From the NCBI GenBank assembly GCA_029964075.1, contig CM057144.1, positions 15,151,281 to 15,215,280 of the forward strand: a stretch of DNA of 64,000 nucleotides, written 5' to 3'. This stretch comes from Patiria pectinifera. Lineage: Eukaryota; Echinodermata; Asteroidea; Valvatida; Asterinidae. Below are positions 1,341 to 64,000 of the stretch, one piece after another. Positions within the stretch are counted from its first letter, which is position 1, and every line of letters starts with the position of its first letter. The notes below the pieces were generated by a model. That model worked only from the letters and a program-made list of their open reading frames with translations. It made no database searches and had not been told where the DNA came from. A program made the translations under genes and the position numbers.

Positions 1341-2765
1341 TCAAGTGGCATAATATTATTTAGCATATTACATTAACAGTGTCGCATTTAGACAAACGTC
1401 TTGTCTACAAGAGCCCAAGTCTAAGTTTAAGTAAGTAAGTAAGACAGTCCAAGTTAGCTATTATCATTAATTATTATACAGATTGAACTGGATAATAATC
1501 AGTCTTCAGTAGCACTGTAGTCATGACTCCAAGGTAACTTGGTAGATAATAGTCCTAATCTCATAGGAGCTTTGTACACAGTACCAAGGTCTGAGGAAAC
1601 ACTTCTATGTAAAAGACAAAACAGAAAATCAAGAGTAAAAATACACGTACATACAATCTTCTGTGGTTATGTGTAAAATGTCTAAGAAATTCAAAGTAAG
1701 AAAGGCACAATTTAAAGATTTCTGCGAAAAGTTGGACGATGGGGAGGTTTAAACGTACGTGTACACCTTTCAGAAAAGCAGGATTTGAGAAAAGATTTTA
1801 GGTCAGGAAATATATCTTAAAGTAAGGGGACGGCTGGGATGCATTGCCATTTTCTTTTATTAAAGCTAGAGTCCATCATTTGCAGCCATCCGAAAAGTAA
1901 CTGGCGTAATTATTGTTGAAAAACAAAATTGGTTGAAAGATAGTAAGGGAACTAAACTCCCTGTGAAATTATTCTTTCTGGGAAGCTGTCATTTTGAAGT
2001 AATCAACGAAAGAAGGCATTTCCAACGGTGATTCTTAAGAAGCACCGTAGGAAAATTTAAATTAGTAGTTCGTTTTGTTATTCAGCGCAGCGCGCATAAG
2101 TATTGGAACGACGCACATGCGCGCGCGGTTGTTATAATTCGTCGGATCAGTGCGCAACGTCGCGTATAGCTGCAATTCAAAACAATTCAAAACATGATTC
2201 AGTGACTTTTGATTTGAAATTGAGATCTTAGAATGCTGTTTTTCTCGGAATGTACAGCTGAAGCTTAGCTGAAACTTCATCAGGTTAGTTGCTCAGTATC
2301 CTTCATTAGATTTTGAACTCTTTTGTTGCTTCAAACGAACAAAATGCACAAATTACAAATGATGGACTGTAGCTTTAAAGGAGGGTGGACAGGAAGCCCC
2401 TCCTTCTTACACAAATGAACGTATCTCACTTAGATCTCTGTGGCTGCTATTAAACAATCTGGAATTTATAAAACTGACATTGTTAAATACACGAATGACT
2501 CTTTTGAATCAAATGCTCAAACAATTTGACATTTTGTTTCATTACATTTTGTTTTATGGCATACCCTTGTCACGGCATCAGTATGAGCCAACCGAAGGTG
2601 CTGTTTTCTTTGTTCTTCCGTGTTTTCTCTTCACTGCTTTTTCCTCTTTACGCTGCAGATATAAAACAGCAAGAAGTTTGGAATTATCACATTTCATGCA
2701 GCTTCTGACTCAGTCTAGATTGTGTCTCTTCAGCAATAAAGAATTATAAGAATAAAAACATCTTA
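1341..2765. other. 3' flank of RNF213-like copy 1
   Basis: No coding potential seen. The stretch 1380-1850 aligns with 51560-51990 downstream of copy 2, and 2376-2765 aligns with about 52030-52400, so this is duplicated flanking DNA and perhaps 3' UTR. About 500 bases (roughly 1850-2375) have no counterpart there and look like a later insertion in this copy; they include a GC-rich spot near 2095-2130 with an NRF1-like core. No clear poly(A) signal could be fixed. Confidence 0.5.
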
Positions 2766-15605: not shown

Positions 15606-16313
15606 CTTTATTAAATTGTAGAAAAAGAAAAGAACAGTCAGTCAGTCAGTCAGAAACTGTAATGGACTCAAGGCACAAGTGCACAAGGGAGATGGAAGGG
15701 GAGATCGTATTGCTGCAGTACGCCTGGCGCTCTCGTAAAAACGAAACAGCTCTTGCCACTTGTCCCTGCCCTGGACCTATCACGAGTGTTCGCATAACTG
15801 TTCTAAGTCAATTCGAGGTGCTCTATCTAAATGATCATGCACGGATTCCATCTATCAGGCGTTTTCAGATAGTGGTGACCAATGGGTAGACGCGACAAAT
15901 CCGCACCCATCCATTGGTTAGGTCTAACACATGCCGTAACGAACTCTCAATTATACTTAATTGGGAGAAAAATTGCCATTGGTAACTGCGGTGCGAGCTT
16001 GTTAAGCTCAATGTTGAAAAAGAGGATTCACAAAGCAGATGCAGATACGGTCGTGTGCTTAAGTCCCTCCTAGGGGAAACTACATCCAGTTTTTGCAGGT
16101 CCTCGGGCAACAGCGAACGAGCATATTATAATGTTTACACATAAATTCTCGACCAAGGTCAAAACTCATGATTTAATACACTTCTAAGTTTGTTAAGTCT
16201 TAAGTTGTGTTTGTTACCGTAGCTAAATTATATGGCATTTTAATAAAGGACAGGGGACGGAATAAGAATTGAAATATTTATGTACCCTTCTCACGAATAC
16301 TCCTCAAACTTAC
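15606..16313 (-). other. Intron of RNF213-like copy 1
   Basis: 708 nt between donor CGAA|GTAAGT and acceptor AAAG|G. It contains a short GTCA microsatellite near 15638-15652. No gene or recognisable element seen. Confidence 0.7.
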
Positions 16314-26889: not shown

Positions 26890-27990
26890 TGACCTAGAGT
26901 GAGTCACATGGCATTCACTATTTTTGTTATCTTCACTCATAGGCAAATCAGAGTCAGGCTTACTTTTCAAATGGAGTCCAGCAACTATATGTATTAAAAA
27001 TGACTCCATTTTCGGAGTCAAACGACTCCGTTAAAGAGTCTCCATATTTACTCCTTTTCCAGAGTCACAATGACCCTCATAAGCTTTTTGGAAGAGTCAC
27101 TGTTGCGAGTTAACTGTGACCCTCCTCTGGGGCCAAGGTGACTATACTATAGGATTAAGGTGGCTCTCATATGGGGCTAAAGTGACTCTCCTATGGGGCT
27201 AAGGTGACTCTCCTATAGGGCTGGGCGAATCTCTCCAAGAGTCATAGTGGTTTTTCGAGTCAAGGCACGCTTTAAAATAACCAAATTACAGTCATGGGGA
27301 CTATTGCAAAACATTGTAGCAGCTTATTTAATGAAGTAAATTTACCTGCAAGGCAAACAATGCTACCCAGCAAAAACGATTACATTTTGACGTTTGTAAA
27401 GTCGATTTTTTACACGTCAAAATGTCGTCCCCTCATATTTAGGTATTTGTGACTGAGTGTGTCAAGCGGTTAAAAAAAAATCGTTCTTGAACATTGGCGC
27501 CGTGCCCAATACTTTATCTGGTTACTCGTAATTTGTAATGATTCCTGTTAAACTTAACTCACAAAACTTTTCAGAGCTTGACTCCCCGACCGAGCATAGC
27601 AAGCAACAAGAGTGGCAAGATGGCAGCCAGCATAGCTACGTAAGCTGGAGACCAGTAGTATCGATCTCAGTGTAAGAGAGTTAGTGACCAGACTACGGTA
27701 GCCGCAATCAACTACAACAAAAAAAAGAAACTTCACGAACCCGGTCATCAATGACTCTTGAAGGGGAGTCAAATTGAATTTGTATTATAGTCCACATTAC
27801 TCTTTTTAAGAGTAAGGGGCCATTTAATTTGTTTGACGAGTCATTTGACACCAACGATTTTTGGAGGGGAATCGAGGGCAATTTTAGGATTTTGGTCAAC
27901 CCCCCCCCCCCCCCATTCGCTGGCACAGATGTACACCACAGGTAAGGGGCCATTTGCTCTGTCTGACTAGTCATTTGACTCCGATTTGGC
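26890..27990. repeat. GAGTCA/TGACTC-rich stretch
   Basis: GAGTC or GACTC occurs about two dozen times in about 1.1 kb, in both orientations, some as inverted pairs (for example 27000-27045 and about 27750-27840). A poly-C tract sits at 27900-27914. May be a decayed element built from short repeats. Confidence 0.45.
27117..27226. repeat. 22-bp minisatellite, five copies
   Basis: Units start at 27117, 27139, 27161, 27183 and 27205, exactly 22 bp apart, with consensus TGACTCTCCTATGGGGCTAA plus GG. The third and fourth units differ at few positions. Confidence 0.85.
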
Positions 27991-33300: not shown

Positions 33301-33906
33301 TTACAATCCCTTGGCGATCATGCCCTGTATTGTGGCAATAAGAGGGTTATAGTCCTCAGCATAGCCGGCAGATGACTTGCCAGCACTAAAGACACACCAC
33401 TTGCCTCTCTGCCTGGCCAACCAGCACATAACTATCGCCCGGTCCTGGTTCAGTTTCTTTATATAGTCCTCGCAGAGCATCTTGCCAGGGTTGGACTCCT
33501 CATGGCACCGCAGGCTAGGATTTGGGTACTTGGAGACTGTGGGAGATTTCCAAGCGCTTAGGGTGAAGAAAAGGTGAGTGATTGAACTTGGGAGGCTGTG
33601 AAGATCGATGTTGATTAAATGATGACCAGTTTGAGTTTCATCGTTCATCACATCGCCAGAATGCCGCATTGCAGGCTGGGATGTATGTTTGTAGTCGAGA
33701 ACGTCATCACATGTCTTCCCTTTAAAGATCAGCACACTTGCGTCGAGAGCATCCTTGCCACTTTCCGGATACCCCCAGCTCAGGTCGAAGACAACCTTGT
33801 CCAGACTAGCTGGCACCGAGTATAGAAGCCGCCGGACGTAGATGGTCATTTTAGGAGCAACCTGGTATGAGCCAAGGGTTGTCTTGGCATGTGATTCGGT
33901 GAATTC
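33301..33906 (-). CDS. Zinc finger-UBL-TerD protein, exon 3: end of UBL and TerD domain
   Basis: 606 nt, 201 residues plus TAA stop, after acceptor TTGAACAG|G. The first 27 residues finish the ubiquitin-like domain (TLGSYQVAPKMTIYVRRL corresponds to the last strands of ubiquitin). The rest is a TerD domain: VVFDLSWG, ALDASVLIF, MRHSGD with a following acidic ND-ET, INIDLHSLPSSITHLFFTLSAW, NPSLRCHE, IVMCWLARQRGKWCVFSAG and a final YNPLIATIQG, in the family order. In bacteria TerD proteins bind calcium and act in tellurite, phage and stress resistance; several of the acidic positions are kept here. No signal peptide, so probably cytosolic. Confidence 0.9.
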   Translation of the reverse strand, partial: EFTESHAKTTLGSYQVAPKMTIYVRRLLYSVPASLDKVVFDLSWGYPESGKDALDASVLIFKGKTCDDVLDYKHTSQPAMRHSGDVMNDETQTGHHLINIDLHSLPSSITHLFFTLSAWKSPTVSKYPNPSLRCHEESNPGKMLCEDYIKKLNQDRAIVMCWLARQRGKWCVFSAGKSSAGYAEDYNPLIATIQGMIAKGL

Positions 33907-34160
33907 CTGTTCAAATGAAATAATACAACAATGCAATAAGAAAACACAGAACCGATAGGCAACTTGTGAGAACATGGCTCCACATGAAATGTGATATACA
34001 TGTATAATTCTTTCGGGATGAGTACCAGAATGACACACGGTAGAATACATACATGTTTACACTAAGTCTATGGGTTAATCGTTTGGAATAATGCAGGTTG
34101 CACCTAGGCCAGAAAAGGAAAAAAAGACGATTTTGTAACTCGATTGGTGAGATAATTTAC

Positions 34161-34481
34161 CTCCATTTCTTTTCCATTGTAAATCAGCTGCTGGTTCTCC
34201 AGCGGCACCTTCAGTTTCTCTGTGACAATCTCCTTGAGCTCGGAGACTGTCATGGACGGGTTCAACTCCACACTGGTGCAGTCGCCGTTCAACATGGCCA
34301 TGCTGACGTAGCCTCTCTCGCCAGACGCCATCGCGGTGGTATGAGGGTCAAACGTGGGCTCGTACTCGGTAAAGAGGGCATCGAGTTCGCAGTAGCACTG
34401 TTTCAGACGACTGGAAGTTTTGCTGACTTTGTTCCCACACTGAGAACACTGCCCGTGCTGTTCAGCATGTGCTGTCACACA
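34161..34481 (-). CDS. Zinc finger-UBL-TerD protein, exon 2: second Cys pair and UBL
   Basis: 321 nt, 107 residues, between acceptor GCCATAG|T and donor GAG|GTAAAT. It opens with CVTAHAEQHGQCSQCG, completing a Cys/His-rich zinc-binding region begun in exon 1. A linker with another CYC follows, then the ubiquitin-like domain from YVSMAMLNGD to LIYNGKEME, matching ubiquitin's beta-grasp order (the LIFAGKQLE position is kept). There is no C-terminal Gly-Gly, so the UBL is an integral, non-conjugated domain. Confidence 0.88.
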
Positions 34482-40180: not shown

Positions 40181-40829
40181 TCTGTGGAAAGTTCCATTTC
40201 TCTATGAATGTGGGAACAATATTTCCAGGGTGGGCATAATGAAAACCCCGCCCCCTTTTTTTTCCTTATATGGTTGCCACGCCCCTAAAAGGGTGTGTTC
40301 GAGATGGCTCCACATCTGGAATTTGTTTTTCTCATGAATATATATGTTTGTGAAAAGTTCCATTTCTCTATGAGTGTGGGAACAATATTTCCAGGGTGGG
40401 CATAATGAAAACCCCGCCCCCTTTTTCTCTTATACGTTTGCCACGCCCCTAAAAGGGGGTGTTCGAGATGGCTCCACATCTGGAATTTTTTCTCATGAAT
40501 ATAAACGTCTGTGGGACGTTTTATTCGCTCATGAAATATAGGCACAATGTTTTCCAAAGTGGGCATAATAATTAAACCCCCCTTTTCTTTTAATGGCTGC
40601 CACGCCCCCAAAAAGGTACTTTTGTGGTGGCTCCGAATCTGGAAAACACTAATAATCTATATAATTATGTCTTTGTGAAGTTTCCTGCTTTTGTAACAAG
40701 TTGGAAAAACCATTTTCACTGTGGGCACGACAAGTCCCGTCCCCTTTTTTTAAATGGATGCCACGCCCCTAAAAGGGTAAATTTGCGATGGCTCCACATC
40801 TAAAACATTTTCTCGCATGAATATAAACA
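40181..40829. repeat. Tandem repeat, about 162 bp, four units
   Basis: Units start at about 40181, 40345, 40508 and 40670. Each has a TCTGTGxxAAGTTTC-like start, a GTGGGCATAATGAAAACCCC block and a GCCACGCCCCTAAAAGGG block. Divergence grows rightward. A fifth start at 40830 coincides with the first unit of the adjacent 406-bp repeat. Confidence 0.8.
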
Positions 40830-42048
40830 TCTGTGCCAAGTTTCTGCTTTTATGCAAAAGTGCACAATTCATCGATATTTTGTCACACATCCGTTGGACT
40901 TTTGGAAACAAGCCAAGTAAGTCAAAGTTGAAATGCAAGGAATAATGTACACGATTACAAAGATATCTCGTTTTTTTACTTTGTCCCAGGCTTTGAAACG
41001 CGTGATAATGATAAAATGGTGGGATCGCGCCATGTGGCCCGTGTGTACACAAACAGGGATCATGTTAAATTCGCAATAAATAACTATTATGTTGTACTAA
41101 TACACATTTAATTTTGACGGAGTTTTTAACTATTTGGTTTTAAAATAGTCCAGCGGAGATCCCGAATACCCGGTTTCACTGTTCACGCACGGGTTCTTGA
41201 TGGTTTCTAGGCCTTTGAGAACTACGTACCAAGTATCTGTGCCAAGTTTCTGCTTTTATGCAAAAGTGCACAATTCATCGATATTTTGTCACACATCCGC
41301 TGGACTTTTGGAAACAAGCCAATTAAGTCAAAGTTGAAATGCAAGGAATAATGTACACGATTACAAAGATATCTCGTTTGTTTACTTTTTCCCAGGCTTT
41401 GAAACGCGTGATAATGATAAAATGGTGGGATCGCGCCATGTGGCCCGTGTGTACACAAACAGGGATCATGTTAAATTCGCAATAAATAACCATTATGTTG
41501 TACTAATACACATTTAATTTTGACGGAGTTTTTTAACTATTTGGTGTTAAAATAGTCCAGCGGAGATCCCGAATACCCGGTTTCACTGTTCACGCACGGG
41601 TTCTTGATGGTTTCTAGGCCTTTGAGAACTACGTACCAAGTATCTGTGCCAAGTTTCTGCTTTTATGCAAAAGTGCACAATTCATCGATATTTTGTCACA
41701 CATCCGCTGGACTTTTGGAAACAAGCCAATTAAGTCAAAGTTGAAATGCAAGGAATAATGTACACGATTACAAAGATATCTCGTTTGTTTCCTTTTTCCC
41801 AGGCTTTGAAACGCGTGATAATGATAAAATGGTGGGATCGCGCCATGTGGCCCGTGTGTACACAAACAGGGATCATGTTAAATTCGCAATAAATAACCAT
41901 TATGTTGTACTAATACACATTTAATTTTGACGGAGTTTTTTAACTATTTGGTTTTAAAATAGTCCAGCGGCGATCCCGAATACCCGGTTTCACTGTTCAC
42001 GCACGGGTTCTTGATGGTTTCTAGGCCTTTGAGAACTACGTACCAATT
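40830..42048. repeat. Tandem repeat, about 406 bp, three units
   Basis: Units begin at 40830, 41236 and 41643, each with TCTGTGCCAAGTTTCTGC. Units 2 and 3 differ at very few positions; unit 1 is slightly more diverged and lacks the join sequence CTACGTACCAAGTA at its start. Recent local amplification of the dispersed unit seen at 36.6, 37.4 and 44.1 kb. Short minus-strand ORFs inside repeat with the unit and are not genes. Confidence 0.9.
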
Positions 42049-47284: not shown

Positions 47285-47888
47285 ATTTACACTTGTAACA
47301 TTAACTTATGGGCTAATTGGCCCTAAAACCATGAAATAAAAAATGCAAATGACAAATTAGAATTAAAGTAGATGCTTAATAAGAATTTTAATTCCATTAC
47401 TGACACCAAGTGGTTTACACAGCTTTATCACCAGATAAGAACAACAAGCCAAACTAATTGTCCAATTTCTTGAAAATGAAGTAATGGTACATGTATCAAA
47501 GTTTTAACAATGTGTTCAATTCCGTGCCGTGCCTACGCGTACGCCTGTTGTGATCCTGTCAGTATCCTCCATGTTTACAAAGTTGTTTATTTTTGTGTTT
47601 TTTTCATTTGCATAAATTGCTGTTTCAGTGTAAACATAATATGATTTTTTTTTTTACTTGACGTAGTATTTTTCAAACATGTTTTGCCAAGGTTCTTTTT
47701 GGTTAATAATTTTCAATCCAACGACTGAATCTGTGCTGATTGTAGTGGGTTTTTTTTGGCCTCTTGATTGTTTGAGAAAAAATATAAAAAGCTGTCAGGA
47801 TAAGTTGACGCAACTTATAAATTCCCTCTTAAACATTATTACAACATATTGTGTAACTAATATTTTTGTTACGATCCCAACATAAAGG
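47285..47888. other. Intergenic, no gene seen
   Basis: AT-rich sequence between the MITE and the hairpin array; an open frame near 47.7-47.9 kb is low-complexity and not supported. Confidence 0.5.
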
Positions 47889-50800
47889 TACAGCCATCAT
47901 CTGCATGACTGTCAAAATGAAACATCACAAAATAGCCATCAACTGCATGGCCTTATAATCACACAAAAATCAGAATACTTACTTTATTTTCAAAAGAAAA
48001 AACTTTTCATGACCCAGTTTATATTGTAAAGTCGCCCTCATGTCAACCTGTATCTTATGTCATCAACGGAAGTAAGAAATTGAAACCACCTACTGCATGG
48101 CTGAAAAAGGCCGTCAACTGCATGGACGATACAAAAAAAACCCATCTTGTTCATGTTGTTTTAGCTATCATGTTCATGACAGTTGGAAGGGAAAACTAAG
48201 TAAATTTGCCATTTACTCCACGGCATAATTAACGCATTTCACGTAAAACATTTCTCGATTCTTATGTAAACCTTAACTTGAATGTCATTAGATTACATGC
48301 ACATAGGCTATTTGTGCACCACAATGCTTTCTGAGTATATTTCGGATTACAACTTTTCTTCCACATCTAACTTACTATTACTTTAACATGACCAAACCAA
48401 TTGTTACTTTATATCACATGAGAAACAAGTTGAAAGCCTTCAACCGCATTGCAGACATTAAAATTAAGAAGAATTTAAAAGCCATCAAACTGCATGACTT
48501 TTAAATACACCTTGAATCCATAAATGAATGAAGCCATTATCTGCATGGCTTTAAACAAAATAACAACAGTGACCGCGACTGCTTAGCCTAGGTGTAATAA
48601 ACTTCCCTTATTCTGACACTGTCTCACATTAAAGAGAAAATTTTTCAGTATTGGCAGCCATCATCTGCATGGCTGCAAAAATAGTCATAAAACAGCATTG
48701 CTACTTCCAACAAACAGCAGAATTTACAATATATTGTGTCACACTAAAATGTTATGCCACACGTCCAACACTGCTAATATGTTTCAAAGTCTTGGGGCCA
48801 TCAACTGCATGGCGTCTTGTTTATGTGAATCATGATAATTATAAATCATGAAGTTAGAGTTGAATATAACCATCTCCAACTGTATTACTGCTGTATGTGG
48901 TCTACAAATCTGACTACCACCCCCCCCCCCCAAAAAAAACACCCAACCCCAAAACAGCCATCAACTGTATGGCAATATGAATATTTAGACCAAAGTCTTA
49001 GATTACACATGATAAAACTGTCACCCTACACGCAGTGTTGCACAACCATCATCTGGATGACTGTATAATGTTGAAGTGCATGGAGAGACAATTAGTACAA
49101 AATTATTTTTAAATTGCAACTTCATGAGACTATTGTCACAGAATTATTTGTAAATTGCAAATCTTCATGTTACGGAATAAGGAGTCATCAACTGCATGGC
49201 CTCCTATTCCATCACAAAAATATGTATGATTACTTTTGTAATTAAATAAACTTTAAAAATCCAGTCATAAATATTGCAATGTCCTGAAAGTAAGCATATT
49301 ATAGAGGAAATAATAGCAATATACAATTATCATATGCATGACTGGATCTAGGCATCTATACAATGTCTTATCGTAAAGTAATATAGAAAACAGCAGTTCC
49401 AACACAGAATGGGAAGCCATCAACTGCATGGCCTCTTATCCAATTACGATTTTATGACCAGTACATCCCAAAAGAATACATCTACAACTTTCTACACAGA
49501 AAACACTGTATTCACTAATTATGTAGCCATCATCTGCATGACTATAGATTATTGTGGAATGGCTGAACACATCCAACAATGCTTACAAAAATACAATGCA
49601 TTTACTAAATTGCTACCTCTTTGAGTTACAGAATGAGGATATATCTACTGCATGGCCTCGAATGCAGTCAGAGAGTATCTATTTGTTGAGAGAAAACTTC
49701 AATGAAGCAATCATTTAGACTGATACTGAAACTGAATTAACAACATAAAAAAAACACGTCGCTGTACTGTAGCCATCATCTGCATGACTGGACAGGCTAT
49801 TATGAAAAATATTTATGGCAAAAAATCTAGCACTTCTTACAAAAATATGTCGAATTGTAACTTCAACATGAATGAGGAGCCATCAACTGCATGGCCTCCT
49901 ATTCAAGATACAAAATGTGTGGTTATTTCATCTCAAAATAGTAAATATGCAAGCTGCAATCAACTGGGTTTTGGGAGCCATCAACTGCATGGCCTCCTAT
50001 TCAAGATACAAAATGTGTGACTGTTTCAACTCGAAATAGTAAATCTCCAAGCGGCAATCAATTGGGTTTGGGAGCCATCAACTGCATTGACTCCTATTCA
50101 ATCACAACATTTACGACTTTTACATCCAAAAAGAATAAATCTACATGTTGCATTCCCAGTAGACAATGTACTAAATATAAAATGGACTAAATATAAAACC
50201 ATGTAACAATGCTTGCTGAAGTAATTTTGCGTTACAGAATGAGGATCCATCAACTGCATGGTCCCGAATTCAGTCACAACGTTTTTTGAAAATATGCTCA
50301 TATGCAACTATCATCTGCCCTGATACTACAAGTTAACAACTTGAAAAATATTTCACTCGGCTAAATGATAATACAGCCATCATCGTCATGACTGATAGCC
50401 TACATGATTTATGAACAAACATTTATGGCAAACAAATCTAACATTACTTACAAAATCTGTGAAATTGCAACTTCAACAAATATGAGGAGCCATCACCTGC
50501 ATGGCCTCTTATTCAAAACTACAAAATGTATGATTGTTACATCCCGAAAGAATAAATATGTAAGTTGCAATCACAGAAAACACTGTACTCACTAAATATA
50601 GCCATCATCTGCATGATTGTTGTGAAATGGCTGATGAACAATGCTTGTAGAAATATTTAGTAAATTGTAACAATTTGTTACAAAATGAGGATCCATCAAC
50701 TGCATGGCCTCGAATTCAGTTACAGACTACTTATTTGTTGAAAATATACTTAAATGCAACCATCATTTGCGCTGATACTCAAAGTTAACAACTGGAAAAA

Positions 50801-51545
50801 GAGTTCACTCACTCTGCTAAATGATATACAGCCATCATCTGCTTGACTGATGAAAAACATTCAAAAGGAACGAGGAGCCATCAACTGCATGGTCTCCTAT
50901 TCAATCACCAAATGTATGACTATTACATCCAGAAAGAGTAAAGTGCAATCACAGAAAAACCACTGTACTCACTAAATATATAACCACTATCTGCATGACT
51001 ATAGGTAGTTGTGGAATGGCTGAACACATAATTGTTACAATTAATGATCTGTTTGTAGCTAGCATCTCCAATGATGATGGCAGTTTAAACAAATATAACT
51101 TGAAGGAGGAGCCATCAACTGCATGGCCTCCTGTTCAATGGTAAAATATATGATTTCTTAAATTCTGAATTAATGTTCTGTTTGTAGCTAGCATCTCCAA
51201 TGATGGGAGTCAATACAAATATAACTTGAATAACTTGAAGGAGGAGCCATCAACTGCATGGTCTCCTTTTCAATCTGAAACTACCTATATCCCAAGGCTG
51301 AACACATCTAACACAAATTAGTGTATTGAAACTTCAAATTGAGAAGTCAGATCCATCAGCTGCATGGCCTCTTTCCAGATCCCCTAACTGATAGTGTGTC
51401 AAAATAAAAAAAAAACCAATGCAGCCGTCATTTGCCACGGTTTAATTACATTTAACAATAATCAGTCATGCATTGCGACTGCATTAACTGTACTTGTCGA
51501 CGTTATTACATATGTTTAAAAAGCCATCATCTGCATGACTGTTTA
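47889..51545. repeat. Hairpin-repeat array, right copy (about 35 units)
   Basis: Units recur about every 80-150 bases. Type A: arms GGAGCCAT/ATGGCCTCC, loop CAACTGC (49876, 49975, 51106). Type A': GGATCCAT/ATGGCCTCG (50243, 50687). Type B: ACAGCCAT/ATGACTGT, loop CATCTGC (47892, 49525, 49770). Types tend to follow A-B-A'-B in a higher-order repeat of about 390-460 bp in 49.4-51.0 kb. Some outer units at 48.4-48.8 kb have different stem bases that still pair: GCAG/CTGC at 48655, AAG/CTT at 48532, AAAAG/CTTTT at 48478. The array lies at the 3' side of RNF213-like copy 2, as the other array does for copy 1. Confidence 0.9.
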
Positions 51546-52401
51546 CTTAAAGTAATATTTAGCAAATAACATTAACTGTGTTTAAATTTGACAGACTTTT
51601 TGTCTACAAGATTCCAAGTCCAACTAAGTTATGGTAAACCAGCACTATTAAAACTTATCATTGTACACTTGAACTAAACAATATTAGTCATCAATGGCAC
51701 TAGCAGTATGATCATAACTCCAAGGAAACTTGGTACATGCTCACTCCTAATCTCGACGTAGCTTTGTAGTCTGCACAAAGATCTGAGCAAAATATATGAG
51801 AGAAAGACAAAACAGAAAATAAGAATATAAGTTGATACAATTTTCCATATGTAAGGATGCTTAAGTTTAAAGTAACAAATATTCAGGAGCACAGGTCAAT
51901 TTTTTTGGGAGGGGGGTGTGAGGTTGGCGATAGGAAAATATTTAGGCCGGGAAATATATTCAAACCGGGGGGGGGGGATGGCTTGGGGTGCTTTCTGTTC
52001 TACAACCCCTTTACATTACTCCTTATTAAAGAAGAGTCTGAACATGGAACCCCTCCTTCCTACCCCAATAAATGTATCTCACTTCTTTGTGGTCGCAATT
52101 ATAAACCTGGAGATTGTGAAACTGACAGTGTTAAATACATGCTTGACTCTTTTCAATAAACTGCTGAGGCTGAACCAATTCAACGTTTGACAATTACATT
52201 TGACATACCCTTGTCACCGCATCAGTATAAGCCAGCTGAAGGTGCTTTTGTCTTGTGTGAGTGTCCTCCGCGTTTTTCCTTTACTGCTTTTTCCTATTTA
52301 CGCGGCAGAGATAAGACACGAAGAATTTTGGAATTATCACAGTTATAAAACCACTGACTATCTCGATTGTGTCTCTTAAGGTAACAAGGAATACGATTAT
52401 A
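51546..52401. other. 3' flank of RNF213-like copy 2
   Basis: Aligns with 1340-2765 downstream of copy 1, apart from the extra block there. Contains G-runs at 51906-51918 and 51967-51978. No coding exon; may include 3' UTR. Confidence 0.5.
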
Positions 52402-52485: not shown

Positions 52486-52565
52486 CTAATTTGTGCATCT
52501 TCAAAAGCAACTTTAAAGAATTCAAAAGTGTGTTTACATTTTAAACAGTTAAAAAAAACTAATAC

Positions 52566-55500
52566 CTGGATTGTCTTGTCCAAATATTCAAGGAGGTTCA
52601 CGATGTGGCAAAGTTGAGTGTCTCTGTGAAGAAGAGGTTTAACACGGTCATATCCAGCCATTCCTTTCAAACGATCTCGAAGTCGCTCGCTGGGGTTTGC
52701 GGGAAAGTCCCGTCTTACTCGGAGGTAGCGAAAAACAAACCTCTTTAGGAGGTCTCGGAACTGAATGACAACATCTGGAGGACGATCGGAGCATTTGCAG
52801 TGGGACCGAGGAAGCTCTTTACGATATTCTTTACTGAGTTTCTGTATGAAACCAGGTGACAGTAGAAGCTCCAAAAGGTTGTACAGCGCAACTATGTTCT
52901 TTAGCTTCATGGATCCTAGCAGGTCAGAAGATTTAATTAAGATGATGGAGTTCCACTTGCTGATGAAATCTGTAAATGTATCCTCTGGCTTTCCATTGGT
53001 TCTTTTGAGGAGACCCATGATTACCTCTACCGTTTGAAACAAGTCATTTGTTAACCCTTTTCTATCCCACCAAGTGACCTTATTGATATTGTGTTTTGAC
53101 AATGCTTCTTGTCTAACCATGGATGCCACGTCATCAAGAATACCCGTTGATGAACTGTACAAGTCATCGGCGAAGATAAAGCCTTCGAAGGTGCTCCCAT
53201 CAGTGATTATTACTTTGTTCAGGACAGTGTCTAATGCTACATTCATCTCAATCTGGTTCAGGTCATAAGTTATCTCCGTTCCATGCCCGTACTCTGTACT
53301 GATATCGTGATAACAGAGGAATCCATCAGATGGGGTTAGAATGACATCCTTCTTTCTAACCATGTTCAGAGGTTTGGTTGAAGCAGCAGCAAGATGGCTG
53401 TCCTTGACGAGAAAGCTGATTGCTGGACAGTCCGTGGTTGCAGCAATACTGAGTGCCTGCATCAAGAACGAATTCTGTGTTTCTTGGAGAGTCTTGATCA
53501 TTCGCTTCAAAGTGTTTTCCTCAGTCACTTTAGGCATGAGACACTCCTTGATCGGAGAGTCAAGTGTGATGTCGTCTGGACGGGTGGTTTCACCAGTAAG
53601 CTCAGTCCATGTGGCACAGACCTCATTGAATGCCTGCATAAAATCTGACCAAGGTTTGGACATAATTTCTGAATGCGCATCAAGCAGAACTCTGATTGGT
53701 TTTTTGCCATATTGGTGTGTGGCTCGTTGAAGGCTCATGTGACTACTCACCAGCAAATTCCATTTCAGCAATTTAGGGAGGAAGGCAATGTACTTTAGAG
53801 CATGGTATCGTGACAGTACAAGTTGAAGAAAGGGAAAAAGCTCTGAATTGTTGCTGCTGTGATCACAAAAGCATGCTCGGAGGTCTTCAAGTGATGACTC
53901 GCGCTTGTTACGAGACGATCTTTGTAAAATCTTGCGTGTGCTCTCATCAGTGTTATCCAGCTCATGTACGCAGTGATGAACGGATTCATCTGGTGTCCCA
54001 AACACTTTCAACGAATTTTCCAAAAATTGACGTTTAGCCAGGGTTGGATTTTGGAGTACCTTCTCAACAACGTTGTGAATATCTAACTCCAGATGATCGC
54101 ATGAGTATTGCGGAGAAACCAGCACTTCAGCGGTTTCCTTGATGATACAGTGAAGCAGCACAGAGGTGTCTTGCCAATTTGCCCTTAGTACTTTTCGCAA
54201 AATCGACCATAACTCTAGCATTCTGTCCTCCACCAGGCTGCCTTTACAAAAGGAAACCTTCTCAAAGTCATCTGGAAATAACTCAGTTGCAACATAGAGA
54301 CATCCATGAACCATGAAGTCAGTGACTAACTGCGATGCAATGGACATGGCTTTGTTTCCCTGAAGGGTATTCCACAACTGAAGTACAGGAGAATAGCTGT
54401 ATCCACTTGGCCTTTGGGCCTGTTGTGTTGATCGATTCTTATCTGGCGTTGCATTACAAAATATCACATTACTACAAGTTGGGCACTTTTGATCCTGGTT
54501 ATACCGTTGATCCTGTACAAACTGCAGTCCACAATGACAGACGACTGTTGTGGTGCATGCAGCTTCAGTTGAAGACTGTGTCTGTGATCCTGGAAAAAAT
54601 GTCCCATTCTTGGCCACAGCTTCTGATGAAAAGAGCTGCTGAAAGATACTCCGTTCTTTACCCGGTTGCATTGGACCAAGTACGACAGTGGCAAGGTGCA
54701 TTAACACGGAGGCAAATTGCGCATCGTGCACTTCAGATTTTTCCGACAACTGTAGTTTTCTTTTGAAGTCCGCAACCCCTGAAATACCTCTCATAACGTA
54801 ATACCACGCTGTTTCGTGGAGATTTGTACCTTCAATTTCATTGATGATCCACTGAGCATGACACTTCGTCGAGTCACTGAGACTTGTAGCATCAAGGTAG
54901 GAAAAATCGACAAGCACTGCCATGAGTGCAAGGCGGTGTTTTGGGGAGGTTCCGAGCTTACTGATGACAGCCTTCATTCCAGTTTTATCATCTTGATGAT
55001 GAAGCTGTGCTAATGCATCTCTCACGTCACTGTACATCTCCATGTAATACATCGGGCTATAACCAATAAATGGCCGAAGAAGACTTTCGGAATCTATATT
55101 TTGGAAGAATACGTCTGACTCTGAGAGAGAATACACTGCCTGACTCAGGTTAAACAAACTGATGTCTTGATGAAACATATACCTCAAGATCCACTTATGG
55201 ACATCGACTGGTGTTTCATCAGAGCTGCCTAAGAAATCAGCCAAACCTTTTAGTTCTTGAATAAGGGAAAACTCCGTCTCGCTTCGAGGAAAGTTTTCAG
55301 AACGGCTGCTGTCAGTGAACATCTCTGCCAAAACTCGGAACAGCTTGTTCAGAAATGCCATGGCACAAACAAACTTCAGCGAACATTTGGTGGAGGTAGC
55401 AACGACTTGGCTTGCAATGATAGAAGTGGCCATGTAACTAGAATGATCTTCCAACAAATTTCTTTTCATTAGGTTGCAGAAGCCACATTCTCCAATCAAA

Positions 55501-58500
55501 TCACAACACAGGGTTGCAAAATGAGTGTTCAGCCCATCTGGTTGGTTTTGAAGTATGTTGTCCAAAATGACAAGATTGTCCGTATGTCTGTCTTGATTCA
55601 CGTCCACATGGATGAGCTCCGTGAACACTGTTTCTTGGTCTGTATCATCAATTTCACTTCTTATGATAAGCCACATCACAAGTCGTGATCCTTCGATAAG
55701 ACTTCCATCATCAGTTACCAGAGATATGCAGATGTCCTCCAACAAAGGAGTTTCAACATTTGCTTCGATGCAACGACCGAAATACGTGGACAGAAAAAAG
55801 TGGTGTTTGGTCGTATCAGTCTCCCTGCTGCTCTTTTGCTGAATGGATTCGATAGTCTCCTTCACGAAACGGAAAATACGCTCGCTGTCCAAAACGTTGT
55901 CCTCTTCAATGGTGACAATCAGCTCACCAAGTTGAGCTAGAGAATGATCTGGAAGTTGACTTGGCAAGGCAAGCAAGTTGACAAAGTCTTTGCAAAAGTG
56001 TAAGTAATGGAGTTCCTTTGGCCGAGCCTCAATCTTTGCGGCTGATAACAAAATGTTGTTGACAAACCGTACCCATAATTTCTGACCGGTGAATTTCTTA
56101 ATAACATCTGTGGTTGGCAGCAAAGACTTGCATACAGATAAAACCAGTTGGAATTTTAGTGAACTTTCTCCGGCCTCCAGATCAAACGATGCGCTGTCAT
56201 CTGTTTCCATGTGGTTACTTGCAGCCACAAACTCCTCTTTTGTTGCACTCTGCTCATCTTCATGAAGATCCAAGCCGTTTCCTAGACTTAAGGTGCCAAC
56301 AACACTCTTCTTGCAGTTGCTACCAATAAAAGACATTAGCAGTTGCACGGGATCATTGCCCGTAGCCAGATGGTAAATGTGCAGAAGCTGAAGTTGGGCA
56401 GCTATAAGCTCAGAATTCATGAGAAGAGCAATATGCCACTTAGACAGTTCTTCATTTGCTGAAGACACCTCGCCAAGTCCCAACGTTTGATGCATTACGA
56501 GCAACTTTGTGGTATTGATGCGCATGTCAAGTGGCATCTGGCTCACATACATGCTTGAGAAGACATTACATAAGTCATTCAGATAGGACTGGATGTGCTG
56601 CGACAAGAACTCGTTATCGACAACCTGTGCCATGTCGTATGTGATAGCCTCCGGAAGCCCGCCATTTAAGATGCTGGTCAAGTTGACAACCATCTCTTCG
56701 GACTGTACAAAAGACTGTTCTGCAACAAGCTTTGCCACTGCATCTGCCCGAAGAAACTTCATGTGCTCCTCAATGATGGTGTAGAGCTTGTGGAAAAAAG
56801 GGAAACATAGCGCAGGTGGAGGTGTATCGATCTTGCATGATTCAATCCCTTTTGGATCTGGAAGGGATGTTGACCGAACGTCACAAACTGCTGGATTCAT
56901 GAGCATGGTTTCCCAGACTATCTGGCACTCTTCTCGGTTCAAGAAACTGTTCCATGCATTGTGTGCCTCAAGAAAGAACACGATCTTAAAGAGAGGCTGG
57001 CTAATTCTTCGTTTCACATGCTCTATCAGTGCAAGGATGAAACTGGCACACTCAAACAGTAATTCGACCTCACATGCAACAGCCACATGCCAGCTCATTT
57101 TGTCAATGGAAAATCCGTCAACAACCTCTTCCTTGATGTCATCTAAGATTTTCATTGACAGGCACTGTAGCAACTCGGGACACTCAGTCACCCTTCTAAT
57201 TAATTGGAGGATCTCATCTACAGTTTTTGACCGATGGTCGTATGAAATGCAAGAGAAACACCACAGAAGCTTATCCTTAATAACCGAGTCAATGTCAACT
57301 GATTTGGCACAGATGTCAGAGATGGACATCTTGATAACTTCGTCAACTTGTAGCTTTGGTTGTTCCAGTGAATCAAGTGTGACTTGTTGCCAACCACACA
57401 GGAAGTTGAACTGCCACGGAAAGGTCGTGGTCATTCCGCCAATACTCTGATCCCTTTCTACGTGGACTATAAAACAAGCGTGCTTCAGTCCTTGCGGAGA
57501 TCCTGCTTTTGTATACTCCTCCAAACATTTGTCAATTTGACATTTGGCCAAGAGCATATGTTGTGCGTTTAGAGATGTTTTGCACTGAAGAATGAAAAGC
57601 TGATCATAGCTCTCGACGAATCGTTGAAGTGCTTCTGTAAGCTGTCTCTCTGATTTGATTTGACTCAGTTTTGCAGCTTGCATTGTTAACAGACCATCCA
57701 TACATTGGTCCAAGTCAACATGAATAGTGCAGTAAGTATACACTATCAGCTTACATGGACGTATCTGGAATTCACCATCCACTAAGGATGCAGAGGGAGC
57801 TTGCTCAAAGATAGCATGTTGAAGGAAATGCTTCAGTCCACCGTTAAGTGGAAGATCTAGGTACTTCTTTTGGATGCAGAGTACTTCATCTTGTTCTTCA
57901 ATTGCCAAGTGTGACTTTGTCGCTCGTAGAATTGCATCAGTTGACGCAATCTTCAGCAGGTCTTGCTTACAGGTGTCTGCGATTTCTCTGAAGTCCATAG
58001 CCTGACTACTCATCTCTTGGCAGCGTAAAGCAACCAGAGAGGGAAGGGTATCAGTATGATAACCCAAGAAAGCTTGACTAGGAGTAAACTGCATTTCTTC
58101 TACTGTGGATATGTCCTCAACCCACCTACGCAAGGTGTCTATTGCTCGCTTCTGCTCATCACTGACAATATCCATAAACGTGAGCGTCTGCTTTTCAAAT
58201 CTGTTCAACAAGGGGGGATCTGAGTAATCAACCTTCTGCTGGTCGACGATGACTATGCAACGGAAATCTGGATGTACCTGACACATCGGGTTGTTGTAAG
58301 CCCCTAAAGCTACACGACAGTGTCTCTTCTTGCCAACAACTGTGTAGTTCTGATTTAGCATATCATACAGGCTGCTGTACACATTCTCCAAGTCACGAAG
58401 CACAAGAACGTAGCCTTCTTCCATACACAGAATGATCCTACTCAGTATACGGTAGTTGTATTCTTCTGATACGTCATCATCAAATCTGCTTCCGAGGAGT

Positions 58501-61500
58501 ATTATGGGCTTCTTGTTTAATTCAAACAATACTTTCTCTATGATGCTCAGCGCAGAGTCTCCACTTGTGATCAGCATGAGGTGTCGGGCATGTTTGTCTT
58601 CTAGGTTGTCTTTGATCAGGTCTAAAGCTGACGGATGCCTCTCAGGGTTTTGAGCAACATCCAATGCTTCCATGAATGTGTTCATGATGTCTGGCATATC
58701 TGATCGAATTCCTCCAAAGTTTCGACGAAGCCCACTTTCTAAAGAACTTGGTCCTTTTTGAGTGCTTCGTGGCATTGCCATACTTTTGATGAGAGAATAA
58801 TAATCCCTCAAGCCATGGAAGTTTGCGTGTGTTTGTTTATGCTGGTAGTCATAGTATGCCTTGGCAAGCTTTTTCAACTGCTGGTCATCTCTCGGTTTGT
58901 GTGCATCAGTCTCAGAAGCTCTTCGTTGTGCACTCTCGTCGCGGATTGACTTTGCAGTCTCGAATAGTTCTTCTTCATTTGGCTCCGGCCGAGACAGATG
59001 AACAGCTCGATTCATTTTTGCCGCATCAAGTGCCCAGTTAGATATTCCAACTACAGCCATCTCAGGGAAATCACCCGTGCTAGGTTCCAACAAACTGTGA
59101 AGAACCTTGAGGGGATTGAAGGAGGATTTTTCCGCTAGACCTATATTATCTAGGAGGACAACTGGTTTGATGTCCGGATTAGCCTCCTTGTAGCGTCTTG
59201 CCTTTTCAAAGACCTTTATGATCCCTTCCGATGTTGATGACTCTGAACCTTGAAAGGAAACGACATAGACAGCTGGCAGTGTCTTGAAAAACTCATCGTT
59301 TGAGTCTGGTCCCCTGAGATTACTGCGGATAAGTTGCATTGAAAGTGACTTGCTGCAACCCGGTTTTCCAATCAAAAACACAGGAATCATATTAAGGATG
59401 GAAGTAAGGACAACAAACACATTTTCCCTCAGGGCCTCATTCTTGGCTATCCCCTCCGGGAGTTCCATCCTATTCAGAATGTCCAGTTGCTCTTTTCTTA
59501 AGACCTCATCTATCTCCTCCTCCTCCAGACGATAATACTTCTTTTGAAAGATTTTGGCTACGTTTTCTCTGTACATCTGTCTATCATCTGATGAAGATAA
59601 CCGTGAATGATAGCAGTGGGCGAGTGCAAGGATGATAGCTCTCACTTCAGAGTCCAAATAGACAGTGTGGTTCAGTTTTGCAGTGCCTTTCTTCTGCAGC
59701 ATGTTTTTCATCCATTTAGCGAGATAAAAGCACCGTTTGATGTCACGAAGGCTCACGCAATACTTGTTATTCATGTTACACCTGATGAAATTTTGCGACA
59801 TAATCAACAAGTCAACAAAAAGTGAAACCAAGTCTTCCCTGATGTCAGTGACCATCCGGTGAGTATATGCTTCTTCCTCCTTTGCGTTCAGTGCGCCATA
59901 ATCCCAGACGTAGTCCGTCAAGGTCTCTGGAAGTGGATGAACTCTGTATACCAACTTCGACTGTTCGTCAACAGTAAGCTTTCTTTGAAGACCTGACGTA
60001 TGATGCTCTCCTTTTCTCAGCGAATAAGCATTGCAGGCTGCAAGGAATACCAGATTTGATGGTAGGCATTCGCCTAAACACGTTTGATGACAGATTATCT
60101 CACTCAGTAGTCCTAGGTGATCACAAGTGTTTATTTCATCAAGAAAACACCAGATCTCTTGATCAAGGTTATCCTCTGCGTCTTCCCGCAATTTGGTGAC
60201 AAAGTCGATAATCGCCTGTTTACAAACGCCAGCGTGAAAATTCAGTACCTTGAACGGAACCTCACAAATTCGAGCTAGGAAAGTGATAAGGGTAGTCTTA
60301 CCACATCCCGTTTCACCCATGATGACAACTGGGACACGTGACTTAACCCTCATGTGAATCAACACCATCTTCATGAAGTTGTCAGGTGTTAGTGCGTAAC
60401 TTGCTTTCAAGTGGCCAAGCTTGTTTTTTTGGAATGGATCACGCGTGTTCCTGCATATTTTTTCCAGGATGCCTTGCAGCTGGACTTGTTCCATACTCTG
60501 ATAATTTGGAAGCTTGTTTTTAAGTTGTTTTTCAAACAGGTCCTTGACACTTTCAGGAACTTGGCTGAGCAGACGGTACATGGGAGATAATGTCTGTGTA
60601 TCCGATTGATTGAATACGACCGTCAGATGATTGCTGTCTGCCCACTGCACCATGCCGTTAACACGCTCTACCATCTTTTCTGCGGTAACGGACGGACCCC
60701 GAGCATGATCACTCAGAGCTACAACCGCATCTCTACCAGTCAGTGGTTGTGTGCCACTTGATTCCACAGAGCGTGACGAAAACTCCTTTGCCACAGCATC
60801 AAGGGCATTGAAAACATCGGACCGTACTCGATGTGAACCTGCCCCTAACATGTCCTGCAGACCTTTGGTAGTAAAAAAATGGGATGCTGACATCTTCCTT
60901 AATTCTGTAGCAAGGACATTCAGAAACATGTTGACAGTGGTAAATGCCATTTTAGACGTCAGGGAAAAATTCTCCTTCAAAAGCTGCTTGCATTGGCCAT
61001 CGGAGAGGATTCTGGCTTTCAAGGGTCCGGTCAAATGTATTTCGTTTGAATCAAGTACTCTGTCTTTGGATGCTTGGAGATAGTGGCAAACTACTTGAAC
61101 AGGGCTGTTTATTTCTGTACTAACCAGGTAACTATCGTAGTTGTCCCATTCTATGTGACGCCTGTTGAAATTACTGCAGTTTGTCAAAGAGTTGCGAAGG
61201 TGGTGCTGCTGCGTGTTTGAAATCTCAATGAAGACCTCATTATACCTCAACTCACATAAATGTGTGCCTGACACGACCATGCCAATAACCAATAGCTCGA
61301 AAATGAAAGAATCGACTAGGCTTGGACAAGACGTCGGTCTTATGTCAACGTGTAGTACTTGGAACCCGGATGAAGACTTTTGAAGAAGCTGCTGAACTAA
61401 TTCCTTCTTTGTCACGTTCCCTCCAATCTCAAAACAAATGGCATTCTTTTCTTTCTTTGCCGCTTTACTTGCTATATACTCCGACTTTCCAAGTCCAGGA

Positions 61501-64000
61501 ACTTCAGAAGTGATCACTTCAACATTTGGCCACCCCTGCTCAAAACAATCTCTCATCTCATTTGCTGTCATTCCCTGAATCTGATGTGTGAAATGTGGAG
61601 AAAACTGATCAATAATGTGATGATGATAACCCCCACGGCAAATTATAGCCAGTAAGAAGGTCTGACCGTCTTGCTGCAGACCTTTTACTTCATCCACCAA
61701 CGAAAACTGAATCTCTGTTGCAAGCTGTTCTACATTGATAAGAATGTAAAGTGCCCTTGACTCCGTTTGCGATGCATTGCGACATCGTCGTACGAGAAGG
61801 TAGACCTCCTCCCAAGTTGTTTCCGAATGGCAAAACAGAACGTGGCTTGCCTGGGGGTAATGGCCTGTTGTATTTCTCATAAGCGTCATGAGAACTGGAA
61901 TCGAATTTTCGCTGTCTTTTTCCAATTCTGCTACAAACACCTTACCAGGTTGTACTGTGTTGTCGAATGTAGCTTTTTGCGCGGTTTTGAGACACATAAT
62001 ATGTCTATCTGTTGACACGGAGTCTGAAAAGATCTTGTCCAGCGCTCTACCTGTCTCAACTAAACGAGCCTCCACATCACCGCTCTCTTTCGGTTGTTCG
62101 TAGTGTTGTCCCAGATGACTGGTCACGCAAATTCCGGCGCTCACATAATGGAAAAGATTCACAACGTCAACATCATTTCCATTCTCTCCTCTGAAGAACT
62201 GGTCGAGCATCCACAGTTGTCTTGAATGGAAAAAGTTCAAGTAGTGGAATGTACGTCTCGCGTCATCTAAAATGTTCTTCCTGAGTTCAAAATCAGTCTT
62301 CAAGGTCTGCTTAAGGGTGAAAAGATCATCTAGAGTGCTAACACTTCGTTGAAAGCTCTTGAAGTTGTAATGACCAGCATTTGATAGCCCTGAGCAAAGT
62401 TCAACAATTTCATTTACTTTATCAACACACTGGATAAAATTCTGGAGCTGATCAGACAAACGACCTTCTTCTTTATCCTCAACTTGTCTCCCTGGCTCAT
62501 AAGACAATCTTGAATTAACCATCAACAAAGCTCTACTGCGCAAGTCATTCAGTTCATCCTGCTCAAATTTGGCCACAGTGTCATCGTCCCTCATATATCG
62601 CATAGTAACTTCGCAAATTCCATCCCTTTTCAAGACAAAGCTATACGAACCGTTCGTCAACGCATTGTAAATTATTTTCTTTGTCATTTCTCCCCGTTGA
62701 GCAATATTGGTGTACAGATTCTTAAGAGCATGGAAATGCTGGTTGCACGTTTCGATCTTCTCAGAAATGTTCTTAATGCCAATTTCTTTACTCTCATCAA
62801 GGGCATCCATAAGCGTTTCTGGTGTGTCGAGTATCTCAACTCTCAGGAAGGGCCCCATGTACCATTGAACTTCAACAAGATCTGACACAGTTGATTCATT
62901 GACGAAAGAATCTGACCTCTCCTCGACCGCATCGATAAGATTTCGCAGATCTTCATCTCTGATTGGCTTCAGAAACTGAATTAACTGATCAGAGTGTATC
63001 AGCTCACTTATAGGCTTCCAGTCGTCACCGCTGAACTTGTTACCAACATCTTCGATCTTCCTCATTGCAGGATGGAGTTCTTGCAACAGCACCGTAGCAT
63101 TAGCAGACTCAAGAATGTTGAGCACAATCTTGACATCCTGAAGGAGGTCGGATTTCGCATGTTCAGGTATTTTAAATGTTCGGAAAAGACACTGCAACTG
63201 TTTTGCATACTGTCTTGTCCTTTCAAGCTTCACCCAACTTTTAGCATATTCTCTGGATTTTTCACTGATGGGCTTGCCAGCAAATCTGGACAGTTTGTTT
63301 AGCTCCACATGAAGTGTACTGCTATCGACACCTTCGAGCAAACATGTGATATCGCCTACTGTTATAATGTGACATCCCTGGACAATGTCGGAACAAAGTT
63401 TGTTGAAGACCGGCAGGCTCTTTGATAGAATCAGTTCAGCAAATGAAGCTATCTGCACAGGTTTTTCTCCACTCTTACTCGCGATGTCTTCAGAGTGACC
63501 AGAAGTATCAGATGACGCATCTTCTTCGTAGTCAGACATAGATTCACTGCTAAAGCTTGGTGGCACGCCGCAACCCTCAGACTCGAGGTGTCTTAGGCAG
63601 ATATTGGAAAACATCCTGGACGTTGTAACCATCTCTACTTTTACGGCAGTTTCAAGAATCGGCCGAAAAACGCCCCAGTAATTTTCGGACACAAGGTTCT
63701 CGAAACGTACATCACTCTCAGGATCAACATCGTGCTTTCTGCGATTGACCTCCATTTGGATTTTCTCCAAATCAGTTCGGCACGCGTTCCTCGCCAACGT
63801 TTTGTAAAACGCCACAAACCCTTCAATTTGACCAAGTTGCTGTGCATGCCTTTGAATAATCGCCATTTTGTCATGAAAACTCTGATAACGCTTTGTGGTA
63901 CTGGCTTCATCTGGGTGAAAACTGACAATCTGACAAAGTGACAATAGTTTGTCGACAAATCGTATTTTCCACAACCTGTTGACGAACTGCACGGAGACCG
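52566..64000 (-). CDS. RNF213: RNF213-like copy 2, giant exon (partial at 5' end)
   Basis: About 3,811 codons without interruption, in frame to the window edge; the GTG at 63992 is not a start because the frame stays open and aligns upstream with copy 1. Order of parts as in copy 1: stalk end, AAA3 with GETGCGKT and FLDEIN, AAA4 with GKPGCSKS, GISNWALDAAKMNRA, LLNRFEKQTL, NFLCGWQQVTLDSL, then the E3 region. AAA4 Walker B reads VVLLDNIGLAE: the catalytic Glu is Asn (codon 59147-59145), unlike copy 1. No RING; the RZ position carries CHCG ... CPTC only. The acidic linker at about 56160-56315 differs strongly from copy 1. Ends at donor CAG|GTATTA. Likely binds ATP at AAA4 but hydrolyses poorly (inference). 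Confidence 0.95.

Follow-up and report, generated by a model that had tools for sequence, protein, structure and literature searches.

The window considered here is a stretch of 64,000 nucleotides of the Patiria pectinifera genome (C16:15151281-15215280; 613.5 Mb of genome were searched), and its subject is A2, an array of short hairpins that lies behind a gene whose giant exon resembles RNF213. Wnt family exons (49 matches in this genome, 0 in 14 control genomes) mark the DNA as that of an animal, and a search for the COX1 family gave no hit. In what follows, + denotes the forward strand of the window, and gene sense the minus strand of the adjoining RNF213-like gene. Three collinear arrays lie on C16 (A1, window -2308 to 1331; A2, 47894-51538; A3, 91627-95011; 32, 32 and 25 units, respectively), in tandemly repeated segments offset by about 50 and 44 kb, and each segment carries a minus-strand gene with a giant exon holding an open frame of 3891, 3908 or 3907 aa. 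The AAA part of this exon matches RNF213 (phmmer to RNF213 chains, E 1.5e-135) and contains Pfam AAA domains; two 500-aa protein queries hit exactly three places in the genome, and no fourth RNF213-like gene was found with them. A putative TGA stop stands in the same place in all three copies (95707-95705 in copy 3), and the distance from stop to array, in gene sense, is about 1.25, 0.7 and 0.7 kb, with the same relative orientation each time. Arrays are thus found behind all three RNF213-like genes, and the feature therefore belongs to the 3' flanks of a gene family, a tie missed by the first-pass annotation of this DNA. The interval singled out there, 47889-51545, does hold a real array, but one of three, the first of which reaches left of the window.

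Within that interval, 32 units lie on the + strand with at most three mismatches to the 15-nt core CCATCAACTGCATGG / CCATCATCTGCATGA, at a median spacing of 113 nt. An additional unit (48470-48509, 24.2 bits) has an 8-nt loop and an AAAAG/CTTTT stem, and a few further degenerate units were spotted by eye, so that the first-pass figure of about 35 units with a nearly fixed loop was a fair count; every stem it named is present in the array. Over the whole window, CCATCAWCTGCATGR has 55 matches (at most three mismatches) where 6.9 are expected and the maximum in 100 shuffles is 14; 32 of them lie in A2, 11 in the second array at 55-1331, and 12 are scattered. The arrays align as 38 unit groups, 20 of them represented in all three and 11 in two. 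Genome-wide, 27 of the 29 occurrences of CCATCAACTGCATGG fall in the three C16 arrays, and a wider core pattern has 64 exact matches in 613 Mb, 51 in the arrays, all on +, and 13 scattered. This distribution is not that of decayed transposon ends strewn at random across the genome, nor of a dispersed mobile hairpin, and it argues against both. No fourth array emerged from the exact-pattern genome search, which diverged arrays could escape. A looser pattern (two mismatches) gives 1507 matches against 308 for a reversed control, and diverged arrays may exist elsewhere, since only the first 100 of these matches were listed.

Each unit can fold into a hairpin with a stem of about 8 or more bp (8-13 bp across units) and, in gene sense, the 7-nt loop GCAGWUG. 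The loop comes in two types, A (GCAGTTG) and B (GCAGATG); type A units also carry an unpaired base (G, A or U) 5' to the upper stem, which is missing from type B. The types tend to alternate in A2 (22 switches, 15.4 expected, P 0.0096), and in the other two arrays the alternation is not significant (P 0.065 and 0.26). Over all 89 units the conserved element in gene sense is an 18-nt core, GYCATGCAGWTGATGGCT, running from 5 nt before the loop to 6 nt after it and covering both loop and upper stem. Information exceeds 1 bit at 17 of its 18 places and falls to 0.02-0.40 bits from 9 nt before or 8 nt after the loop outwards. Its most variable place lies in the loop itself (T in 49 and A in 36 of the 89 units, the N of CAGNTG), and just one other place, four nt ahead of the loop, is clearly two-state, with C or T.

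The core is also what the duplicated arrays have kept. Between paralogues its identity amounts to 0.827, 0.859 and 0.927 and that of the spacers to 0.697, 0.740 and 0.782 (p 4e-8, 1e-7 and 1e-11), in an out-of-sample comparison that defined units in one array and compared the other two at those columns; expressed as divergence, the core stands at 0.17, 0.14 and 0.07 and the spacers at 0.30, 0.26 and 0.22. The spacers show local duplications; long direct repeats of about 65-112 nt occur in 2 to 9 copies, mostly at 60-90% identity. A tandem satellite is rejected, in that spacers are not conserved between neighbours and only the 18-nt core carries high information.

Folding points in the same direction. 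Unit 39-mers average -8.8 kcal/mol against -4.1 for spacer 39-mers, a gap for which the higher GC content of units (0.42 against about 0.31) may account in part; measured against dinucleotide shuffles the mean z is -1.1, with 22 of 89 units below -2. When the arms outside the core were exchanged between units, with the consensus core held fixed, no permutation of 2000 folded as well as the units with their own arms (2 of 2000 for type A alone, 0 of 2000 for type B); counting Watson-Crick-only runs instead gave 0 of 2000 for type A and 138 of 2000 for type B. The difference persists when each collinear group contributes a single unit (38 groups, arms exchanged only between units of the same loop type): the sense energy comes to -9.97 kcal/mol with own arms and to -8.95 with swapped ones, with a median p of 0 and a largest p of 0.014 over 40 draws. 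Covariation scores on the two alignments are 0.222 against 0.177 shuffled for type B (3 of 500; 35 of 36 rows, one identical row omitted) and 0.120 against 0.090 for type A (2 of 500; rows preselected). Both exceed all slid registers, of which one for type B reaches 0.178. The type A alignment holds 24 of 28 units chosen for having three or more of the four outer pairs (the omitted ones are a duplicate of an identical unit and three units at 91939, 94415 and 94793), with 25 type A units outside it, and its pair counts lean towards structure because of this preselection. Further pair types in type B are no more numerous than in shuffles (336 of 500).

Overall, the kept core, the diverged spacers, the outer-arm covariation and the stronger folding of units support selection on a unit that bears a hairpin. 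The covariation that the first-pass annotation saw is statistically supported by the arm swaps; it is also modest, and since the inner four pairs vary little, the term fits mainly the outer stem. Its further claim, selection on the fold instead of on sequence alone, was too strong, because the core is kept as sequence and most stem changes between paralogues break pairs. From these comparisons we conclude that the core sequence is guarded, and that pairing was shaped in deeper time and has been at most weakly guarded since the gene duplications.

Comparison with known systems gave no family for the array. Rfam 15 returned no matches at gathering scores over the window and none up to E 10 over 47800-51650, and a tRNA/tmRNA search found none. 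The 3' untranslated region (3'UTR) of the transferrin receptor mRNA carries a tandem set of iron-responsive elements (IREs) in five copies, and the arrays resemble it in several respects: several copies of a short hairpin with a conserved loop and changing stem in a 3' flank, with an unpaired base 5' of the upper stem in type A and a loop that holds CAG in gene sense. The loop differs, the consensus over 89 units being GCAGWUG against the CAGUGN of IREs (PMC4184891). IREs also have an unpaired C, or a UGC/C bulge, five nt 5' of the loop, whereas the unpaired base is G, A or U in type A and missing in type B; an earthworm and a crayfish IRE, for their part, carry U or G at that place (PMC4184891). 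The upper stem of 4 bp, the roughly 33 copies and the lack of an Rfam match set A2 further apart. The Xist A-repeat consists of hairpin-forming 26-mers with U-rich linkers and has been proposed as a multivalent protein platform; its loop is AUCG, and it has 7.5 (mouse) or 8.5 (human) copies in a non-coding RNA (PMC5742192). The arrays show predicted hairpins set in skewed spacers that are likewise T-rich in gene sense, and differ in the loop and in having no Rfam match. As far as tested, the array belongs neither to IREs nor to the Xist A-repeat family.

The gene models around the arrays offer some observations of their own (Table 1). Read by eye, copy 2 lacks the AG acceptor that copies 1 and 3 have at its last coding exon (52222-52310, minus strand; CCGCG for CAGCG), and an AG 9 nt further on preserves the frame and the same stop. 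Upstream of the RNF213-like exons and on the same strand, exons at 33301-34481 encode TerD (E 7.5e-10) and ubiquitin-like (UBL; E 1.4e-9) domains, and the TerD part is repeated in copy 2 at 82739-83386; these exons may be the N-terminus of one TerD-UBL-RNF213 protein. In copy 1, the AATAAA that is conserved in the arrays lies inside a perfect inverted repeat, CTTTATTCTG-TA-CAGAATAAAG (window -2210 to -2189; C16:15149070-15149091), which is nearly kept in copy 3 and altered in copy 2. Other repeats nearby include a 407-bp tandem repeat between gene copies 1 and 2 (40829-42046; three copies, 98% matches) and a 22-bp tandem repeat at 27116-27222 (4.9 copies). Outside the window, at C16:6525463-7183758, unrelated repeats with CAACTGCTTCAAATGCATG lie about 165-168 bp apart in several blocks over 0.66 Mb.

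Table 1. Features of the window, in window coordinates; unit types refer to the loop in gene sense.
Feature	Positions	Strand	Remarks
Array A1, part inside window	1-1343	-	11 of 32 units in window; runs on to about window -2320 (C16:15148960)
Putative last coding exon, copy 1	2578-2652	-	stop TGA 2580-2578; three-copy alignment, read by eye
Giant exon, RNF213-like copy 1	3959-15607	-	high end is the open-frame end, not a mapped splice site; low end a putative donor
Hairpin array A2	47882-51550	- (adjacent gene's strand, putative)	32 units with at most 3 mismatches, plus one 8-nt-loop unit
Unit core, type B	47894-47908	-	ACAG/CTGT stem
Unit core, type A	47936-47950	-	
AATAAA	47983-47988	-	sole AATAAA/ATTAAA aligned in all three copies (also -2204 and 91730); two hairpins beyond
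Unit core, type A	48086-48100	-	2 mismatches
Unit core, type A	48111-48125	-	
Unit core, type B	48165-48179	-	3 mismatches
Unit core, type A	48437-48451	-	3 mismatches
Unit, 8-nt loop	48470-48509	-	AAAAG/CTTTT stem; counterparts at like places in A1, A3
Unit core, type B	48534-48548	-	AAAG/CTTT stem
Unit core, type B	48658-48672	-	GCAG/CTGC stem
Unit core, type A	48798-48812	-	
Unit core, type A	48958-48972	-	
Unit core, type B	49046-49060	-	
Unit core, type A	49185-49199	-	
Unit core, type B	49327-49341	-	3 mismatches
Unit core, type A	49417-49431	-	
Unit core, type B	49527-49541	-	
Unit core, type A	49641-49655	-	3 mismatches
Unit core, type B	49773-49787	-	
Unit core, type A	49880-49894	-	GGAG/CTCC stem
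Unit core, type A	49978-49992	-	
Unit core, type A	50075-50089	-	
Unit core, type A	50247-50261	-	
Unit core, type B	50377-50391	-	2 mismatches
Unit core, type A	50490-50504	-	loop GCAGGTG
Unit core, type B	50602-50616	-	
Unit core, type A	50693-50707	-	
Unit core, type B	50832-50846	-	
Unit core, type A	50878-50892	-	GGAG/CTCC stem
Unit core, type B	50984-50998	-	2 mismatches
Unit core, type A	51112-51126	-	
Unit core, type A	51247-51261	-	
Unit core, type A	51353-51367	-	loop GCAGCTG
Unit core, type B	51524-51538	-	closest to gene
Putative last coding exon, copy 2	52222-52293	-	stop TGA 52224-52222; three-copy alignment; splice sites, frame by eye
Giant exon, RNF213-like copy 2	52563-64000	-	84% identical to copy 1; frame 3908 aa; continues right of window; low end approximate

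The interpretation we tentatively favour, at somewhat less than an even chance, is that the arrays serve as multivalent platforms of RNA hairpins, situated in the 3'UTR of their RNF213-like genes or in transcript further downstream and bound by a putative protein. What it builds on is observed: the arrays themselves, their place in the 3' flank of three RNF213-like genes, a core conserved over spacers, and the complementarity of the outer arms. The RNF213-like transcript would continue past its stop through 25-33 hairpin copies, or be spliced near them, with the gene-sense strand as the functional one and U/G-rich spacers joining the hairpins. A putative RNA-binding protein would recognise the loop and upper stem, while the outer stem would act as a clamp that needs only to pair. 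Copy number would be the source of avidity, many copies being bound at once, and binding may control the stability, translation or localisation of the large mRNA. Several observations agree with the gene-sense strand and a transcript that reaches the array: the arrays lie behind the stop; the fourth pair of type B is U.G or Watson-Crick on that strand in 33 of the 35 rows; the single AATAAA aligned across the three copies stands at the far end of the array; and copy 2 shows neither AATAAA nor ATTAAA from its stop up to the array.

At the same time, several observations weigh against this reading. Among the 31 collinear groups with at least two units (5 of which lack an outer helix), Watson-Crick pairs that changed on one side only between paralogues became G-U in 14 cases, C-A in 16 and another mismatch in 24, so that 40 of 54 break the pair on the gene-sense strand and the 14 versus 16 shows no strand preference. 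Double changes keep pairing in 4 cases and lose it in 2, one of the 4 coming from group 1741, where the A3 unit has a B-like arm and may be misgrouped. These stem changes lie close to our own estimate of what is expected without selection on pairing. The statistical check on covariation likewise cuts both ways: the permutations favour own arms, but pairs changed on both sides number 4 (A) and 6 (B), not above slid registers (up to 6 and 7). Local folding (span at most 120 nt) gives a mean inner-stem probability of only 0.41 on either strand (0.412 and 0.409, hence no strand call), exceeding 0.5 in 37 of 89 units in gene sense, and the strand preference of the type B fourth pair may stem from one ancestral event. 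A single poly(A)-like signal precedes the array, past the stop, in copy 1 (1861) and in copy 3 (95054), the conservation of the AATAAA could be fortuitous (of 5396 six-mers, 582 are kept in all three copies), and a GT-like donor 13 nt past the stop means that the array could sit in a 3'UTR intron. Lastly, the skew of the spacers gives a slight advantage to folding on + rather than in gene sense.

That skew is strong, and its sign is not decisive as to strand. In gene sense the spacers of all three arrays have a T-A skew of 0.12-0.14 and a G-C skew of 0.14-0.15 at a GC content of 0.31-0.32, against -0.06 to 0.06 and -0.10 to 0.07 in pooled flanks and introns. On + the spacers are accordingly A/C-rich, and the single-stranded linkers of structured RNAs are often rich in A; the hairpins might then act in a separate non-coding RNA read from + in antisense to the genes, in which case only shared duplication would connect them with the RNF213-like genes. 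When the skew of shuffled spacers is flipped, the inner-stem probability falls on + (0.398 to 0.366) and does not fall on - (0.395 to 0.405), in line with an antisense RNA. Yet in 22 of the 35 type B rows that RNA would have C x A mismatched in the middle of its stem, and a similar T-A skew appears in two 1-kb windows left of A1 (0.125 and 0.165 at -9000 and -7000), and we consider an antisense RNA improbable. The lack of strand preference in stem changes and the near-equal folding of both strands agree with an element read as DNA: a homotypic cluster of about 33 sites per gene, bound by a basic helix-loop-helix (bHLH) dimer with extended flank preference or by a reader of extruded hairpins, and acting as a 3' enhancer or terminator. 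The E-box (CANNTG) that the first-pass annotation recognised in the loop, and offered as a protein-binding alternative, is present in nearly all units (its C, A, T and G stand in 87, 85, 86 and 84 of the 89, respectively). CAGNTG recurs as in homotypic bHLH clusters, and its variable N resembles class A E-boxes, which vary at that position. An 18-nt block, however, far exceeds an E-box, covarying outer arms are needless for a dimer site, and all units point the same way in three arrays, a uniformity unusual among enhancer sites. We regard a DNA-level role as rather unlikely.

An 18-nt block conserved amid free spacers is also the pattern expected from a complementary guide, and the units could be near-perfect targets for a small RNA that acts in trans, which would make the array a sponge or a regulated 3'UTR; alternatively, the other strand of each unit could itself yield a small RNA. 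Many sites per transcript have a precedent in CDR1as (ciRS-7), with its 74 miR-7 sites (PMC5814467), and the arrays resemble it in having dozens of short conserved sites in one predicted transcript. In CDR1as, however, the guide reads a linear site, whereas the arms covary here, which a guide RNA leaves unexplained, and a single weak candidate guide locus was found. This locus, C12:12921234 (L055, C12:12921084-12921399), is a single off-array type B core and the only exact off-array match to GCCATCAWCTGCATGR among the matches listed. Its core site occupies one arm of a hairpin (18 bp, 8-nt loop) formed on the strand that corresponds to gene sense in the arrays, and the other arm could pair with the gene-sense core of the arrays. 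The hairpin has a z of -3.5 (0 of 200 shuffles as stable), the remaining off-array core loci of the 16 folded ranging from 0.4 to -2.8. It is short for a microRNA precursor and was the top scorer among 16 loci and many windows, and for both reasons we treat it as a lead rather than a finding. The units themselves do not qualify as a microRNA precursor cluster (hairpins some 60-70 nt long whose mature sequence lies in one arm): their stems of 8-13 bp are shorter than those of usual Drosha/Dicer substrates, their loops are 7 nt, and conservation spans the loop. A small-RNA explanation is, on balance, rather unlikely. Finally, the arrays could be an old tandem repeat of no present function, in which template switching or conversion keeps hairpins alike while spacers drift. 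Hairpin stems can arise and be repaired through template switching (PMC8794818), the spacers do hold local duplications, and the stem changes between paralogues are near neutral in kind. Template switching alone would not be expected to fix a 7-nt loop across 38 collinear groups in three arrays, and the core has diverged far less than the spacers, so that absence of function also seems to us improbable.

Regardless of how these alternatives fare, tandem regulatory hairpins as such are already known, although to our knowledge few animal transcripts with them have been described. RNF213 has been studied in innate immunity and in moyamoya disease, and no description of such arrays was found in the titles and abstracts of the open-licence literature searched. 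It is possible, though less likely than not, that the multivalent platform amounts to an undescribed structured RNA, with some 30 hairpins per transcript dedicated to RNF213-like genes, recruiting one protein many times and keeping its register through two gene duplications. Such an RNA would gather many protein molecules on a giant mRNA, in the manner of the Xist A-repeat. In this context, about 30 hairpins per gene stand at all three RNF213-like genes of one genome and, by the searches made, nowhere else; they would make a clean test system, with one motif, three paralogous arrays and a prediction on which stem changes matter.

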